NCBI GenBank assembly: GCA_015486075.1
Contig: WFSG01000044.1
Span: 1-64,000, forward strand
Source: Deltaproteobacteria bacterium
GTDB taxonomy: Bacteria; Desulfobacterota; Desulfomonilia; UBA1062
DNA: 64,000 nucleotides
Reading direction: 5' to 3'
The notes under the pieces are model-generated. The model searched no databases. It worked only from the letters and a program-made list of their open reading frames with translations, and was not told where the DNA came from. This document shows positions 46,287-54,263 of this stretch, piece after piece. The position numbers were made by a program, and so were the translations under genes. Each line of letters opens with the position of its first letter. Positions within the stretch are counted from its first letter, which is position 1.

Positions 46287-49217
46287 ATGAAATTTTTAGC
46301 TGACCTACATGTCCACTCCAGGTTCTCAAGGGCTACTAGCAAGGATCTTACCATTCATTCGCTCGCCGTTGGCGCTAAGAAAAAAGGTATAGATGTACTG
46401 GGTACAGGAGACTTTACTCATCCACTCTGGATACAGGAGATTGAAGAAAACCTTGAGGAGGCAGAACCTGGATTATACCGCCTGAAAGAACGGGATTCTG
46501 GCGTGAGATTCGTGCTTACATCAGAGATAAGCACTATATACAAGCAAGGCGGTAAGGTTCGCAAGGTACATCACCTTATAGTTGCTCCCAGCCTTGAGGT
46601 TGCACGCAAGATAGGTTCTTCATTGGCAAGGGTAGGTAACATAGTGTCGGACGGTAGGCCTATACTTGGGATTAGCTCGAGGGACCTTCTCGATATTGTG
46701 TTATCGGCCGATAGCAGTGCATTTCTAATCCCTGCTCACATATGGACGCCATGGTTCTCAGCGCTTGGGTCCAAGTCTGGGTTTGATTCCATAAAGGAGT
46801 GTTATGGTGACCTTGAACCATACATATTCGCCGTTGAAACAGGTCTTTCGTCAGACCCCCCAATGAACTGGCGGGTGAGCTCTCTAGACAGATATCACCT
46901 TGTCTCGAACTCTGACGCTCACTCGGCTGCGAAGATAGGGAGAGAGGCGACCATATTCTCGTGCGATATGAACTATTACTCCATGATGGATGCCATGAAG
47001 ACAGGGATTTCGCTGGAGGGCACGGTAGAATTCTTTCCAGAAGAGGGAAAGTATCACCTTGATGGCCACCGGGCATGCGGCATTGTGCTGAAACCCGAGG
47101 AAACCAAGGAACTCGGAGGCATATGCCCGGTATGTTCAAAGCCCCTTACGGTGGGTGTACTAAACCGAGTGATAACGCTTGCTGATAGGGATAGCGGGGT
47201 AAGGCCAAAAAGCGCTAGGCCATTCTATTCTCTTATACCGCTTGCAGAGATCCTTGGCGAGATAATGGGGGTTGGTCCTTCCTCGAAAAAGGTGCAGACC
47301 CTGTACGAAAGACTGGTAAATCATTTGCATGGCGAGTTGAGACTGCTCATGGATGCAGACCTGGAAGAGGTAAAATCTGAAGCCGGAGAGATCCTTGGAC
47401 TAGCAATAGAAAGAATGCGTTTAGGAGACGTATACAAGGAACCAGGGTATGACGGTAAGTTCGGGAAGGTGAAGGTTTTTCATGAGAGCGAGATGCGCTC
47501 CTTGTTTGGAGGTCTCTCATCGTCTCGGGTCAGGGACAGTGCCTTATTTAAGAACAAAGCACAACCAATGGCAAAGAAAAAAGACAAAGAAGATGTTCGG
47601 GGTTTACTTACGGCTAATCAGGCTGACGTGGTGAAGTTCACAAAGGGCATGCTTGTCGTGCGGGCAGGTCCTGGTACAGGCAAGACAAGGGTACTGACCG
47701 AACGTATCCTTTACCTCTTAAACAAAGGTGTAAGGCCTGACTCTATACTTGCTCTTACGTTTACAACAAAGGCGTGCGATGAGATAAAACAAAGAGTTTC
47801 GAGGAATGGCCTGAATGTATATACCTTTCATTCACTGGCTGCCCGCCTGCTGAGGGATGCAGGTAGGACATTTAGAGTGGCTGACGACGACATACTGTCA
47901 AGTGAGTTTCCAGATAGAAAGGATTTGGTTGAAAAGGTCATGGCTAGCCTAGCAAGGTCTGAGGACCTGTATGATAACGCTCAGGCCGTGATGGATGAGC
48001 TCAGACTTAAGGGTTTGTATCCATTCGAGATGCTCATCTATGAGGCCATGGGAGTAGTATCGTCCTCCAGGATAGAGATCCATTGGGACCATGTAATGGT
48101 GGACGAATTTCAGGACACTAGCCCCTTGCAGTATTCGTTTTTAAAGTTGATTGCTAGGAAAGCCGAGAGTGTGCTTGTGATAGGAGATCCACGTCAGAGC
48201 ATTTACGCGTTTAGGGGTTCTGATCCAAGGATATTCGATCATCTGTGTGATGATTTTAGTGGAACAATGGAGGTCAGCTTAAAACGCTCATATCGCTTAA
48301 ATAGCACTGTAGCTAGTGCATCCAACAGCCTTATTGGCGAGGATGCAGTGGATGGTATGAGGCAAGGCATGCCTATAGAGGTAGTGAAAACCCCTTGGCC
48401 TGCCACATTCGTTGCCAGGGAGATAGAGCTCTTATCGGGTGGGCTATCACACAACAGCGCTGGAATGGCAAAGGCAGATTATGCATTGAGCCAGATAGCT
48501 GTTATAGTGCGTACAAGGGCGCATGCTAAGGCAATAACAAGGGCCTTGTCAGATGCATCCATACCGCACGAGGTTGCCTATGAAAGGCCATTCTCAGAAG
48601 TGAACGGTATCAGAGAACGGCTAGCCATATTGGATGATGGCGACTGGATACCCTGCGTAAGGGGTGTCGGTGAAAAGGCACTGGTTAAGCTTAATGCAGG
48701 TCAGGACATAGGTAGAGAGCTAAGCCAGAGGATAGAAAAGGCAAGAGTGCTTGTTGAGTCTAGGGACATCCCCATAGAGCAGAAGATACGCATGGTTGAG
48801 GAGTCCAACCTGTTTAACCTGGCTCCACTCCCGCAGGACCATGAGTTCTACAGGTATGCGATCTTGTTCGGGAACGACCTCGATGGCTTTATCCAGTGGT
48901 GCAGGCTGAAAAGGGATCACGAGGGTATGGGAGGAGAAAAGGTAAGGGTGCTCACGGCGCATGCAGTAAAGGGAATGGAGTTCAGGTGTGTGTTTATAGT
49001 TGGGCTTGAAAAAGGATTGTTCCCGTTGGCCAAAGAGCCTTTAAGAGATGAGGAAAACCTGTTCTATGTTGCCATGACCAGGGCAATAGACAGGTTATAT
49101 CTTGTGTACTCCCATGAACCGTCATGTTTCATTGAAAGAATTCCAGAGGTGCTAAAGGTGTTTCACGGTATTGAAGATAAAAATAAGGCTCCCAGGCAAA
49201 TGATGTTGTTCGATTGA
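46287..49217 (+). CDS. EndoQ-like PHP nuclease fused to UvrD helicase
   Basis: This 976-residue protein joins two DNA-repair modules. Residues 1-400 match endonuclease Q: PHP motif ADLHVHSRFSRATSKDL (His8, His10), GTGDFTHP, Glu80, His95/His96, AHIWTPWF, NSDAHS (Asp210, His212), and a zinc segment with C264 and CPVC at 280-283. EndoQ nicks DNA 5' to deaminated bases such as uracil and hypoxanthine. Residues 440-976 are an SF1A helicase: Walker A AGPGTGKT at 460-467, VDEFQDTS (605-612), GDPRQSIYAFRG, SYRLN, HAVKGMEF and YVAMTRAIDR. Both halves keep their motifs, so nicking and unwinding would be coupled. A short Lys/Gln-rich linker lies at about 420-440. Confidence 0.92.
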   Translation: MKFLADLHVHSRFSRATSKDLTIHSLAVGAKKKGIDVLGTGDFTHPLWIQEIEENLEEAEPGLYRLKERDSGVRFVLTSEISTIYKQGGKVRKVHHLIVAPSLEVARKIGSSLARVGNIVSDGRPILGISSRDLLDIVLSADSSAFLIPAHIWTPWFSALGSKSGFDSIKECYGDLEPYIFAVETGLSSDPPMNWRVSSLDRYHLVSNSDAHSAAKIGREATIFSCDMNYYSMMDAMKTGISLEGTVEFFPEEGKYHLDGHRACGIVLKPEETKELGGICPVCSKPLTVGVLNRVITLADRDSGVRPKSARPFYSLIPLAEILGEIMGVGPSSKKVQTLYERLVNHLHGELRLLMDADLEEVKSEAGEILGLAIERMRLGDVYKEPGYDGKFGKVKVFHESEMRSLFGGLSSSRVRDSALFKNKAQPMAKKKDKEDVRGLLTANQADVVKFTKGMLVVRAGPGTGKTRVLTERILYLLNKGVRPDSILALTFTTKACDEIKQRVSRNGLNVYTFHSLAARLLRDAGRTFRVADDDILSSEFPDRKDLVEKVMASLARSEDLYDNAQAVMDELRLKGLYPFEMLIYEAMGVVSSSRIEIHWDHVMVDEFQDTSPLQYSFLKLIARKAESVLVIGDPRQSIYAFRGSDPRIFDHLCDDFSGTMEVSLKRSYRLNSTVASASNSLIGEDAVDGMRQGMPIEVVKTPWPATFVAREIELLSGGLSHNSAGMAKADYALSQIAVIVRTRAHAKAITRALSDASIPHEVAYERPFSEVNGIRERLAILDDGDWIPCVRGVGEKALVKLNAGQDIGRELSQRIEKARVLVESRDIPIEQKIRMVEESNLFNLAPLPQDHEFYRYAILFGNDLDGFIQWCRLKRDHEGMGGEKVRVLTAHAVKGMEFRCVFIVGLEKGLFPLAKEPLRDEENLFYVAMTRAIDRLYLVYSHEPSCFIERIPEVLKVFHGIEDKNKAPRQMMLFD

Positions 49218-51248: not shown

Positions 51249-52330
51249 TGCTTGCCCTTGGAGAATATCCTTATGATGTCACTGTAGAATGCAAGCAGGG
51301 TAAGTAGGGTGAGCAGAAATATCCCTATTTGCTGTGCTATTTCCCTTGGCCTACCAACAACCGGTCTTCCTGTGATCCATTCTATGCAAAGGAGAAGCAG
51401 GTGGCCTCCATCTAGTATGGGGATGGGGAGCAGGTTTATCAGGCCTAAATTGATACTTATGAAGGCTATCATGGAAAGGAAGGGGAGCCATCCCTCTCTG
51501 AATGTCTCTCCTGATATCTGTGCTATCATGATAGGCCCGCCCAGGCTTTTCCGTATATCAATGGATCCGTTCAAAACCTTCCAGAAACCAATACAGGTGA
51601 TCTTGAGAACTCTGTAACTTTGTGCCATTCCCCAGTACATGCCTTTAAAGGGCCCATACGTTTGTATCATTGTACTACCCATTGGGCTTATACCTATTAT
51701 AGGCCTCATTATCCTCTCTCCGAATATATCTTTCGTAGTCTTCATCTGGGGCATAACATGTATGATTAAAGACCTAGATTCTCTCTTTACGGTTATTTCA
51801 AGAGGTTTATTTTTCTTGTATGCCTGCTGTATCACGGGCGAGATATCTTTCCATAGCTTTATGCCTTTGCCGTTTATTGATATTATTGTATCCCCTTTAG
51901 ATATCCCCGCGGAATACGCCGGTGATTGTCTTTGAACCTCCCCAACAACGGGTAAAAGCCTAGGTATGCCTGACCATGCAAGGACTGTGTATATGATAAA
52001 TGCCAGCACCAGGTTTGCCACTGGACCTGCTGCCACGATGGACGCCCTTGAGAGTAAACTTTTCCTTGAGAATGATTTCTCTGGTTCAATGTGGGTTAGT
52101 TCTTCGTCTTCCTCGATATTTTCTCCAAGTAGTTTTACATAGCCCCCAAGAGGGACGACCGAAAGCGCATACTCTGTCTCACCGATACGCTTTTTCACAA
52201 TTGCAGGGCCAAAGCCAAGTGAAAACTTAAGCACCCCCACCCTGTTTAACTTTGCAAGAGTGAAATGACCAAGTTCGTGGAAGAAGATGAGTATGCCAAG
52301 AACTATGATAAATGCGAGTAACGTGTTCAT
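51245..52330 (-). CDS. rseP: Site-2 protease RseP
   Basis: This 361-residue inner-membrane zinc metalloprotease has the catalytic HELGH at 18-22, a PDZ domain (about 110-200, SPAYSAGISKGDTIISING), and the second-motif LLPIPILDGGHLL near residue 300. RseP cuts anti-sigma factors and signal peptides. The neighbours dxr, cdsA and uppS are the classic context. It overlaps dxr by 4 bases. Confidence 0.95.
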   Translation of the reverse strand: MNTLLAFIIVLGILIFFHELGHFTLAKLNRVGVLKFSLGFGPAIVKKRIGETEYALSVVPLGGYVKLLGENIEEDEELTHIEPEKSFSRKSLLSRASIVAAGPVANLVLAFIIYTVLAWSGIPRLLPVVGEVQRQSPAYSAGISKGDTIISINGKGIKLWKDISPVIQQAYKKNKPLEITVKRESRSLIIHVMPQMKTTKDIFGERIMRPIIGISPMGSTMIQTYGPFKGMYWGMAQSYRVLKITCIGFWKVLNGSIDIRKSLGGPIMIAQISGETFREGWLPFLSMIAFISINLGLINLLPIPILDGGHLLLLCIEWITGRPVVGRPREIAQQIGIFLLTLLTLLAFYSDIIRIFSKGKQ

Positions 52331-53454
52331 TTGATCAATTTCCTCGTGTATTCACGGGTCTTTTTGTCCAACATAACTATATCCTCGGGCGAGTGTATCT
52401 CCTCATTGTAAAGACCCTCCATGGAGGCCTCTACAATCTCTATTATCTGGTCAAAGTGTATGCGCCGTCTAAGGAAGGCATCAACGGCAACCTCGTCTGC
52501 AGCGTTCATTATGCAGGCTAACTGTGGTTTTGCAGCTGCTTGCCTGGCCAGTCCAAGTGCAGGAAACCTATCTGGGTCGGGCGGGAAGAATTCTATTGCA
52601 GGCACATTGCTAACCTCTAGAGAAGGCAGGTCTGTTGGCAACCTAAAAGGCCATCCAAGTGCATATGATATAGGTATTTTCATATCAGGGAATCCCATCT
52701 GTGCTTTTATACTTGTATCTTCGAATTCAACCATAGAATGGATTATACTCTGCGGGTGTATCCATACATCTATGTCTTTTACATCCATGTCAAAGAGCCA
52801 CGATGCCTCTATGATTTCGAGGCCCTTGTTCATCATGGTTGCTGAATCTATTGTAATCCTTTTTCCCATGCTCCACGTGGGGTGTCTTAAGGCCATCTCT
52901 GGTGTTACTCCACCCAATTTTTCTTTTGGTATATCCCTGAATGGACCGCCTGATGCAGTGAGAATTAGGCGTTTTACACTATTTGATGCCTCGCCTCTCA
53001 GACACTGGAATATGGCTGAATGTTCTGAATCGACCGGTATTATCTGAACATCATTCTTAGCTGCTTCTTCCTTTATAAACCTGCCCCCAATGACCATGGA
53101 TTCCTTGTTCGCGATGGCAAGGGTTATACCCATACGTACGGTCTCCAATGAAGGTAGGAAACCAGCGCTTCCTGATATGCCATTAAGCACTATGTCGGGC
53201 TTGGTGTGTCTTATGAGTTCAACTTGGGCATTTTGTCCTGTTATAATGCCTTCGTGTTTATCAACGGTTCCTTTGGGGCTCGAAACTGCAATCATGTCAA
53301 CATTGAACTCTTTTGCCTGTTTCATGAGCAGCTCAATGTTTGCATTGGCAGATAGGCCAACAACGTTGAATCTAGACCTGTGCATCCTTATGACTTCAAG
53401 CGTTGACCTTCCTATGGACCCGGTTGAACCAAGTACTAGAACATTTCTCTTCAT
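52327..53454 (-). CDS. dxr: 1-deoxy-D-xylulose 5-phosphate reductoisomerase
   Basis: This 375-residue MEP-pathway enzyme has the NADPH site VLVLGSTGSIGRSTLEVI, ANKESMVIGG, the metal region VDSEHSAIFQCL, and the HPTWSMGKRITIDSATMMNKGLE-type segment of the family. I start at ATG 53454, which shares one base with the cdsA stop; an in-frame start at 53631 runs back through cdsA and gives no homologous sequence. Confidence 0.96.
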   Translation of the reverse strand: MKRNVLVLGSTGSIGRSTLEVIRMHRSRFNVVGLSANANIELLMKQAKEFNVDMIAVSSPKGTVDKHEGIITGQNAQVELIRHTKPDIVLNGISGSAGFLPSLETVRMGITLAIANKESMVIGGRFIKEEAAKNDVQIIPVDSEHSAIFQCLRGEASNSVKRLILTASGGPFRDIPKEKLGGVTPEMALRHPTWSMGKRITIDSATMMNKGLEIIEASWLFDMDVKDIDVWIHPQSIIHSMVEFEDTSIKAQMGFPDMKIPISYALGWPFRLPTDLPSLEVSNVPAIEFFPPDPDRFPALGLARQAAAKPQLACIMNAADEVAVDAFLRRRIHFDQIIEIVEASMEGLYNEEIHSPEDIVMLDKKTREYTRKLIK

Positions 53455-54263
53455 CAATAGAGGGCCTTTGTAAGGAAATATAGTACCATGCCGACAGGTA
53501 CTATTCCATCCATTCGGTCTAGCATACCACCGTGTCCGGGTATCAGGTTGCCCATATCCTTGACCTTGCGGTCCCTCTTTATCATTGATGCCGTAAGATC
53601 CCCTGTAAGATCGAGTAAAGCTATACAACAACCTATTGTCCCTAGCGTAACCAGTCCTAGCCCGGCATTAAACGGTAACCAGATCTTCCAGGTAAGAGCA
53701 AGGAGGATTGCTGCAACTGCGCTAAAAAAAACACCGCCAAACAGTCCTTCCCAGGTTTTCTTGGGGCTTAATATCGGTGCTATGCCATGGCGGCCAAGGG
53801 TTTTACCCACATAGTATGCACCGATATCGGATGCAAAGGTGCATAGCAAGCCAAATATCATCCAAAATCTACCATCTTCGCCATTACGTAGAAGTATCCA
53901 GAAACAGAGCAAGCCAGAGGGGTAAATCATGCCAGATACTGCAAATATGACATCCTTGAGGTCTGAGCTTTTTCTTTCGTACAGGTACAGACCAAGTATT
54001 ATAATAACCAGCGAGACAATTGAGATTGAGAAATATACAAGGTCAAGTCTTAGGATATATGCAGACCACATAAGTGCTGTGGCACCAACGATGCCGGTCC
54101 ACATCAAGGGTCTTGAACCCCTGTCCAGGCATACGTTGTAGAACTCAAAAAGGCTAACATATATAACCACGTGAGCTGCTGCAAAGAATACCCACTGAGG
54201 CCCAATTATCACTGGTACTGCCAGGATTAAGACAAGGGCTAAAGCACTCAGGATCCGCTTCAT
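53454..54263 (-). CDS. cdsA: Phosphatidate cytidylyltransferase
   Basis: This 269-residue polytopic membrane enzyme forms CDP-diacylglycerol. It ends with the CdsA signature KDMGNLIPGHGGMLDRMDG and has SPKKTWEGLFGG, plus about eight hydrophobic helices. The ATG overlaps the uppS stop by 4 bases. Confidence 0.95.
   Translation of the reverse strand: MKRILSALALVLILAVPVIIGPQWVFFAAAHVVIYVSLFEFYNVCLDRGSRPLMWTGIVGATALMWSAYILRLDLVYFSISIVSLVIIILGLYLYERKSSDLKDVIFAVSGMIYPSGLLCFWILLRNGEDGRFWMIFGLLCTFASDIGAYYVGKTLGRHGIAPILSPKKTWEGLFGGVFFSAVAAILLALTWKIWLPFNAGLGLVTLGTIGCCIALLDLTGDLTASMIKRDRKVKDMGNLIPGHGGMLDRMDGIVPVGMVLYFLTKALY

Follow-up and report, generated by a model that had tools for sequence, protein, structure and literature searches.

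A bacterial protein uniting an EndoQ nickase-like domain, an SF1A helicase, and a clamp-type C-terminal tail

Whether a bacterium can carry a nickase for deaminated DNA and a DNA helicase in a single polypeptide, and what such a protein might do, is the question raised by an open reading frame (ORF) at positions 46287 to 49217 on the forward strand of the window, a 64,000-nucleotide stretch of contig WFSG01000044.1 from the genome of a Deltaproteobacteria bacterium (GCA_015486075.1). EndoQ is described in the literature as a mainly archaeal enzyme with homologs in a few bacteria. The initial annotation, made from the sequence alone, read this ORF as a fusion of EndoQ with a UvrD helicase that could repair lesions which rise with temperature. 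The domain identities and the intact catalytic residues of that interpretation stood up to the analysis; rarity of the fusion and the heat rationale were not supported. The breadth of the fusion, the adjacent gene pairs and unlinked compact helicases, and the C-terminal clamp motif go beyond that annotation.

The gene and its parts

The gene is a single uninterrupted ORF with an ATG start, encoding 976 amino acids followed by a stop codon. It comprises an EndoQ domain (residues 1 to 410; 46287 to 47516), assigned by profile, PDB, alignment, and Foldseek matches, a disordered linker (residues 411 to 438; 47517 to 47600), a UvrD/PcrA/Rep-like SF1A helicase with short 1B and 2B regions (residues 439 to 962; 47601 to 49172), and a disordered C-terminal tail (residues 963 to 976; 49173 to 49214), all on the forward strand. 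In the AlphaFold model, which was built with 47 family members and has a mean pLDDT of 87, the two halves form confident bodies, while the linker and the tail are disordered, with pLDDT values below 50. The pTM of the model is 0.55, so the placement of the EndoQ and helicase bodies relative to each other is undefined, and no fixed interface between them is predicted. Eight related assemblies carry the fusion within the same gene order, so the frame is not a product of two genes put together by misassembly; dozens of other genomes also have the fusion, and an assembly or frameshift artifact is ruled out. Sequence and structure matches to both halves confirm that an EndoQ nickase-like domain and an SF1A helicase are present in one bacterial protein.

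The EndoQ half

The assignment of about 400 N-terminal residues to EndoQ is borne out by several searches. Residues 5 to 400 match the Pyrococcus furiosus EndoQ (PfuEndoQ) structure 5zb8 in a PDB sequence search (E = 6.3e-53) and the EndoQ structures 7k30 and 7k31 with E values from 3.2e-52 to about 4e-52. No PHP protein other than EndoQ in the PDB reaches an E value of 1e-3 against this region; EndoQ is thus its sole PHP match in the PDB, and another PHP family as its identity is ruled out. A Foldseek comparison of the AlphaFold model with 5zb8 recovers the full-length EndoQ fold (TM score by target, 0.89 to 0.90; 31% identity). TIGR00375, an NCBIfam model with control hits in B. subtilis, M. 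jannaschii, and M. acetivorans, is matched end to end (2 to 374 of 374; E = 7e-52), and the score of 177 bits lies below the curated cutoff of 326.6 bits, which is reached in none of the 297 genomes drawn from the host phylum. We call this cutoff a naming threshold and regard the domain, on its sequence, as a bacterial branch of the EndoQ family rather than a TIGR00375 equivalog.

When PfuEndoQ is aligned with 51 sequences from bacteria, the catalytic residues H8, H10, D42, E80, H95, H151, D210, and H212 (in PfuEndoQ, in order, H8, H10, D42, E76, H84, H139, D193, and H195) are invariant, and the PHP catalytic metal ligands (Pfu H8, H10, E76, H84, H139, D193, and H195) are all kept in the 51 bacterial sequences. 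The pocket for uracil and hypoxanthine, formed by H151, G186, and S188 (Pfu H139, G169, and S171), is likewise invariant in these sequences. The exchanges E76A, H84A, and H139A each abolish PfuEndoQ activity, and PfuEndoQ H139, G169, and S171 exclude normal bases (PMC8307549). The putative zinc site H261-x2-C264...C280-x2-C283 (47067 to 47135, forward strand) aligns with Pfu C249, C252, C268, and C271; His261 (47067 to 47069) replaces the first zinc cysteine, Pfu C249, in 51 of 51 bacterial sequences, and the other three cysteines are kept. An HCCC site of this kind is able to bind zinc. The histidine at the first position may be a signature of the bacterial branch, as judged from the 51 aligned sequences.

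Archaeal EndoQ (PfuEndoQ, 5zb8/7k30; TkoEndoQ) shares with the fusion the PHP fold, the catalytic and pocket residues, three of the four zinc cysteines, and a C-terminal motif of the sliding-clamp type, but it is about 30% identical, and the fusion differs in its first zinc ligand and in the attached helicase. Stand-alone bacterial EndoQs (those of Bacillus pumilus, B. subtilis, and members of the host phylum, the last about 50% identical to the EndoQ domain of the fusion) have the same domain and, in most cases, a QxxLF-type tail, but no helicase in the chain; in some of their genomes a helicase is encoded by the next gene or at an unlinked site.

The helicase half

That the C-terminal part carries a full set of SF1A motifs is likewise upheld. 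Residues 441 to 943 match the UvrD-helicase (1.7e-49) and UvrD_C (4e-22) profiles, UvrD and PcrA are also matched in the PDB, and the helicase half of the AlphaFold model aligns with UvrD (2is1) with a Foldseek TM score by target of 0.66. Residues 440 to 960 make up a complete SF1A helicase, including the Walker A lysine, DExQD, and the motif VI arginine. Conservation across the 85 fused helicases is at or near 100% for the Walker A lysine, DExQD, motif III, YR in motif IV, H..KG.E, and TRA in motif VI; in the Walker A motif GPGTGKT (residues 461 to 467; 47667 to 47687, forward strand), G463, G465, K466, and T467 are invariant, as are D606, E607, Q609, and D610 in motif II, DEFQD (residues 606 to 610; 48102 to 48116, forward strand). 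Judged by these residues, the halves of the fusion protein look CATALYTICALLY intact.

The fused helicase shares all SF1A motifs and the overall fold with UvrD, PcrA, and Rep but differs from them in several respects. Compared with Escherichia coli UvrD, its 1B and 2B regions are shorter, an insert is present around G718-G719, and a clamp-type tail stands in place of the UvrD-type C-terminal extension. Its equivalog scores are below the cutoffs for both PcrA (194 versus 911 bits) and UvrD (193 versus 1144 bits), and the UvrD/PcrA/Rep branch contains no fused helicase in either of the helicase trees. By these measures it does not qualify as a UvrD/PcrA/Rep orthologue. A search with the helicase half at E values of at most 1e-40 recovers mainly the host's own family, because these helicases diverge fast, and two regular-expression patterns meant to capture a helicase insert specific to the family failed to tell the groups apart.

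The clamp-type tail

The protein ends in APRQMMLFD, in which QMMLF (residues 971 to 975; 49197 to 49211, forward strand) fits a QLxLF-type motif and lies within the disordered terminus; Q971 is 98% and L974 is 94% conserved. The ending is QLSLF, QLKLF, or QLDLF in other fusions, which come from many phyla, and QLRLI or QLRLL in those of actinomycetes. The strict pattern Q[LM]xL[FIL] occurs in the last 14 residues of 76 of the 84 complete fusions, 19 of the 39 stand-alone EndoQs, and none of 1771 background ORFs, and a relaxed pattern occurs in 80, 32, and 33 of them, respectively; the background consists of the other ORFs of at least 200 amino acids from the same loci, which are mechanical ORFs and not all genes. 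When the fusion tails are shuffled, 0.2 of 84 are expected to match the strict pattern. Each of the five complete paired helicases has QLTLF, QLKLF, or QLKFF no more than 4 residues from its end, and the clamp-type tail is absent from the canonical UvrD/PcrA-type helicases of the genomes sampled for the helicase tree. In the fusions, the motif stands after the helicase, at the new C terminus.

The QMMLF tail agrees with the established consensus for clients of the bacterial sliding clamp and is likely to be a beta-clamp-binding motif, as predicted from its sequence. The C-terminal PIP box of archaeal EndoQ binds PCNA with a KD of 55 nM, and PCNA stimulates nicking; beta-clamp-like motifs in bacterial EndoQ homologs were already noted by Shiraishi et al. 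in 2016 (PMC4858679). By analogy, the tail of the fusion would mirror the archaeal PIP box, with the difference that it fits the bacterial QLxLF type and is placed after the helicase.

Distribution and evolution of the fusion

The survey does not support rarity of the fusion. TIGR00375 has a match in 194 of the 297 genomes drawn from the host phylum; among 150 listed matches, 51 lie in frames of at least 850 amino acids and 99 in frames of up to 700 amino acids, some of the short ones being truncated by contig ends. Among the genomes of named species, at least 586 confirmed relatives were found, and in 72 of the best 80 EndoQ and the helicase occur in one frame, a proportion that is not an unbiased rate because these loci are the top matches to a fusion-rich set. 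The nearest named relatives among the matches listed are Deltaproteobacteria bacterium SpSt-1167 and Syntrophaceae bacterium UBA6087. Within the best 80 of the at least 586 relatives, fusions span at least ten phyla, the records belonging to Thermodesulfobacteriota, Myxococcota, Actinomycetota (Micromonospora, Salinispora, Frankia, and Actinoallomurus), Gastranaerophilales, Elusimicrobiota, Planctomycetota, Chloroflexota, Gemmatimonadota, Binatota, Fibrobacterota, and Pseudomonadota; metagenome bins carry their depositors' labels, and binning errors may account for single cases. In the phylum of Asanoa, EndoQ occurs in 4 of 101 genomes, three times in a fusion-length frame. The EndoQ family is therefore broad across phyla and scattered within them. 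Fused or paired versions occur in mesophiles such as Micromonospora, Frankia, gut Gastranaerophilales, and the termite-gut Endomicrobiellum, and with many hosts being mesophilic, the thermal rationale is not supported and thermophily is ruled out as a general cause. One Micromonospora parastrephiae locus (L116, 777 to 4108) has a broken fusion frame, with the helicase end and a QLRLI tail in a second overlapping frame, which is either a sequencing error or a real frameshift.

At six loci, EndoQ and the helicase are consecutive genes on the same strand, with gaps of -60 to +201 bp between stop-to-stop frames. In the EndoQ tree, all 80 fusions cluster with four pairs and five apparent helicase losses in one well-supported group (89 rows; SH-aLRT, 99), and most stand-alone forms and two pairs fall outside it. 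This topology fits an order from stand-alone EndoQ to gene pair to fusion, with later splits, losses, and horizontal spread; because the outgroup branch is very long and SH-aLRT values are the only support, neither the root nor a single origin of the fusion is proven. Four genomes with a stand-alone EndoQ encode an unlinked UvrD-like helicase of 506 to 576 amino acids with a QxxLF tail. In the tree, these compact helicases group outside the UvrD/PcrA/Rep branch, their nearest rows being paired or fused helicases, and they (L198, L211, L213, and L214) are possible trans partners of the stand-alone EndoQ. A helicase of the same type was not found in many of the stand-alone-EndoQ genomes examined, and most of the basal stand-alone EndoQ clade has none nearby.

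The host locus

The fusion gene is flanked by genes for a divergent peptide-type ABC transporter and a CNNM/CorC protein, and beyond corC the other strand carries genes for a TsaB-like protein, an M50 protease, and Dxr. The order opp-fusion-corC-tsaB-rseP recurs at eight related loci; three of the eight contigs or sequence stretches end before tsaB, and the order is kept as far as they reach. The listed TTG start of the dxr ORF (52327 to 53631, reverse strand) adds about 60 residues that overlap the neighboring cdsA-like ORF, and the true start is probably downstream, because the Pfam match begins only at residue 64.

The host genome has a single TIGR00375 match. It also has a canonical UvrD/PcrA-type gene, a longer RecB/AddA-like gene, one gene of the uracil-DNA glycosylase (UDG) superfamily, and one endonuclease V (EndoV) gene, and because of the last two the fusion is probably not the host's only route for uracil or hypoxanthine. 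In another genome of the host's family (L137, 2739 to 4112), the helicase part and the clamp-type tail are gone and corC directly follows EndoQ, with synteny otherwise conserved; the EndoQ half can therefore persist without the helicase.

Proposed role and alternative explanations

We favor, with some reservation, the reading that the fusion is a clamp-tethered excision-repair enzyme for uracil, hypoxanthine, and abasic (AP) sites, which would nick 5' of the lesion and then peel off the damaged strand. The QMMLF tail would hook the protein to the beta sliding clamp, and the EndoQ domain would flip out the uracil, hypoxanthine, or AP site and cleave on its 5' side, so that the undamaged side would end in a 3'-OH and the lesion would come to lie at the newly made 5' end. 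The attached SF1A helicase would load at the nick, move 3' to 5' on the intact strand, and peel away the lesion-bearing 5' end, after which a 5' flap nuclease and a polymerase (for example, Pol I) would trim and fill and ligase would seal. The clamp tether would keep the two activities together at a single site, from which the polymerase would take over. From the features described above, we infer the enzymatic activity, lesion range, helicase polarity, clamp binding, and order of steps. UvrD-type helicases translocate 3' to 5'. EndoQ cuts 5' of the lesion (PMC4357722, PMC8307549), and its products carry 3'-OH and 5'-phosphate ends (PMC4357722). With a 5' cut and a 3'-to-5' motor on the intact strand, the motor would therefore run towards the lesion and displace the damaged 5' end as excision needs, and unwinding from an EndoQ nick fits this geometry. 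For archaea, the steps depicted after EndoQ are hypothetical, and one version includes a helicase (PMC4357722). In outline, the proposed route resembles methyl-directed mismatch repair, in which SF1A unwinding likewise comes after a nick and the clamp is also contacted, but the latter uses separate proteins, whereas the fusion is one polypeptide whose nickase would read the lesion itself. In mismatch repair, MutH makes the nick and UvrD unwinds.

The excision-repair reading is favored by the EndoQ match with its catalytic and pocket residues, the near-invariant SF1A motifs, the six tandem pairs, the unlinked helicases of the same kind in four genomes, and the conserved clamp-type tail. Against it count the TIGR00375 score under the cutoff, the changed zinc ligand, the EndoQ without a helicase at L137, the UDG and EndoV genes of the host, the many stand-alone-EndoQ genomes in which no same-type helicase was found, and the unpredicted placement of the two bodies. 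The order of the two activities may also be reversed, the helicase moving with the clamp or the fork and opening the duplex for EndoQ, which would then examine the single strands and cut at deaminated bases exposed in them. The efficient cleavage of uracil and hypoxanthine in single-stranded DNA by PfuEndoQ (PMC11354406) and a tail that would put the protein at replication sites speak for this reversed order, but cutting exposed single strands at a fork would make breaks and the nick geometry favors action after the cut; the sequence does not tell the two orders apart, and we regard this possibility as unlikely. Slightly more doubtful is the idea that the fusion is a physical convenience, EndoQ making a nick that any nuclease or polymerase could take up and the helicase serving a separate, general UvrD-like role. 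The disordered linker without a predicted fixed interface, the loss of the helicase at L137 with EndoQ retained, and the basal stand-alone clade, most of which has no such helicase nearby, would suit it, but the one large fused clade, the recurrent tandem pairs, and the position of the helicases outside the UvrD/PcrA/Rep branch speak for a shared task, and the hosts examined also carry canonical UvrD-type helicases for general roles.

Two further readings seem to us highly improbable. The enzyme might be coupled to replication and use uracil or hypoxanthine in fresh DNA as a strand mark, a clamp-borne EndoQ nicking the new strand at dU and the helicase removing a tract, which would give strand-specific entry nicks for mismatch repair in bacteria lacking MutH; ribonucleotides can supply strand-specific entry nicks in eukaryotes. 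The least probable, by a little, is a defense against phages or plasmids in which the protein would nick and unwind foreign DNA that is rich in uracil or modified in another way, in analogy to Gabija, where GajB is partnered with a nuclease. PADLOC GajB models match the helicase half (best, 1.7e-60), and a review has raised an antiviral function for Bacillus EndoQ (PMC8307549), but GajB models match UvrD-type helicases in general, none of the six neighboring genes (transporter, CNNM/CorC, TsaB-like, and M50 protease) has a PADLOC match, and the locus lies in conserved core synteny of the family, unlike typical defense islands. One scan with six narrow peptide patterns found no viral relative, which is weak evidence against a viral origin. 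Although the UvrD-type helicase profile is shared with GajB, a PHP EndoQ domain stands where the GajA nuclease would, and with a helicase score only and neither GajA nor another defense neighbor in the six genes, identity with Gabija is ruled out.

Meaning of the fusion

The papers searched contain no description of an EndoQ-helicase fusion and, in line with the initial annotation, no biochemical study of one; most subscription journals were outside the coverage, and the architecture may already be listed in domain databases. Each part is of a known kind, and as far as we can see, there is no earlier description of their combination and how widely it occurs, of the helicase branch being a separate one, or of a clamp-type tail at the helicase end. 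In bacteria of many phyla, EndoQ and a dedicated helicase that bears a clamp-type tail come as one chain or as a tandem pair, which names a likely downstream partner of the EndoQ nick. Culturable hosts such as Micromonospora, Salinispora, Frankia, and Desulfonema open the pathway to direct tests, and in them the fusions may be passed over as ordinary UvrD-like helicases.
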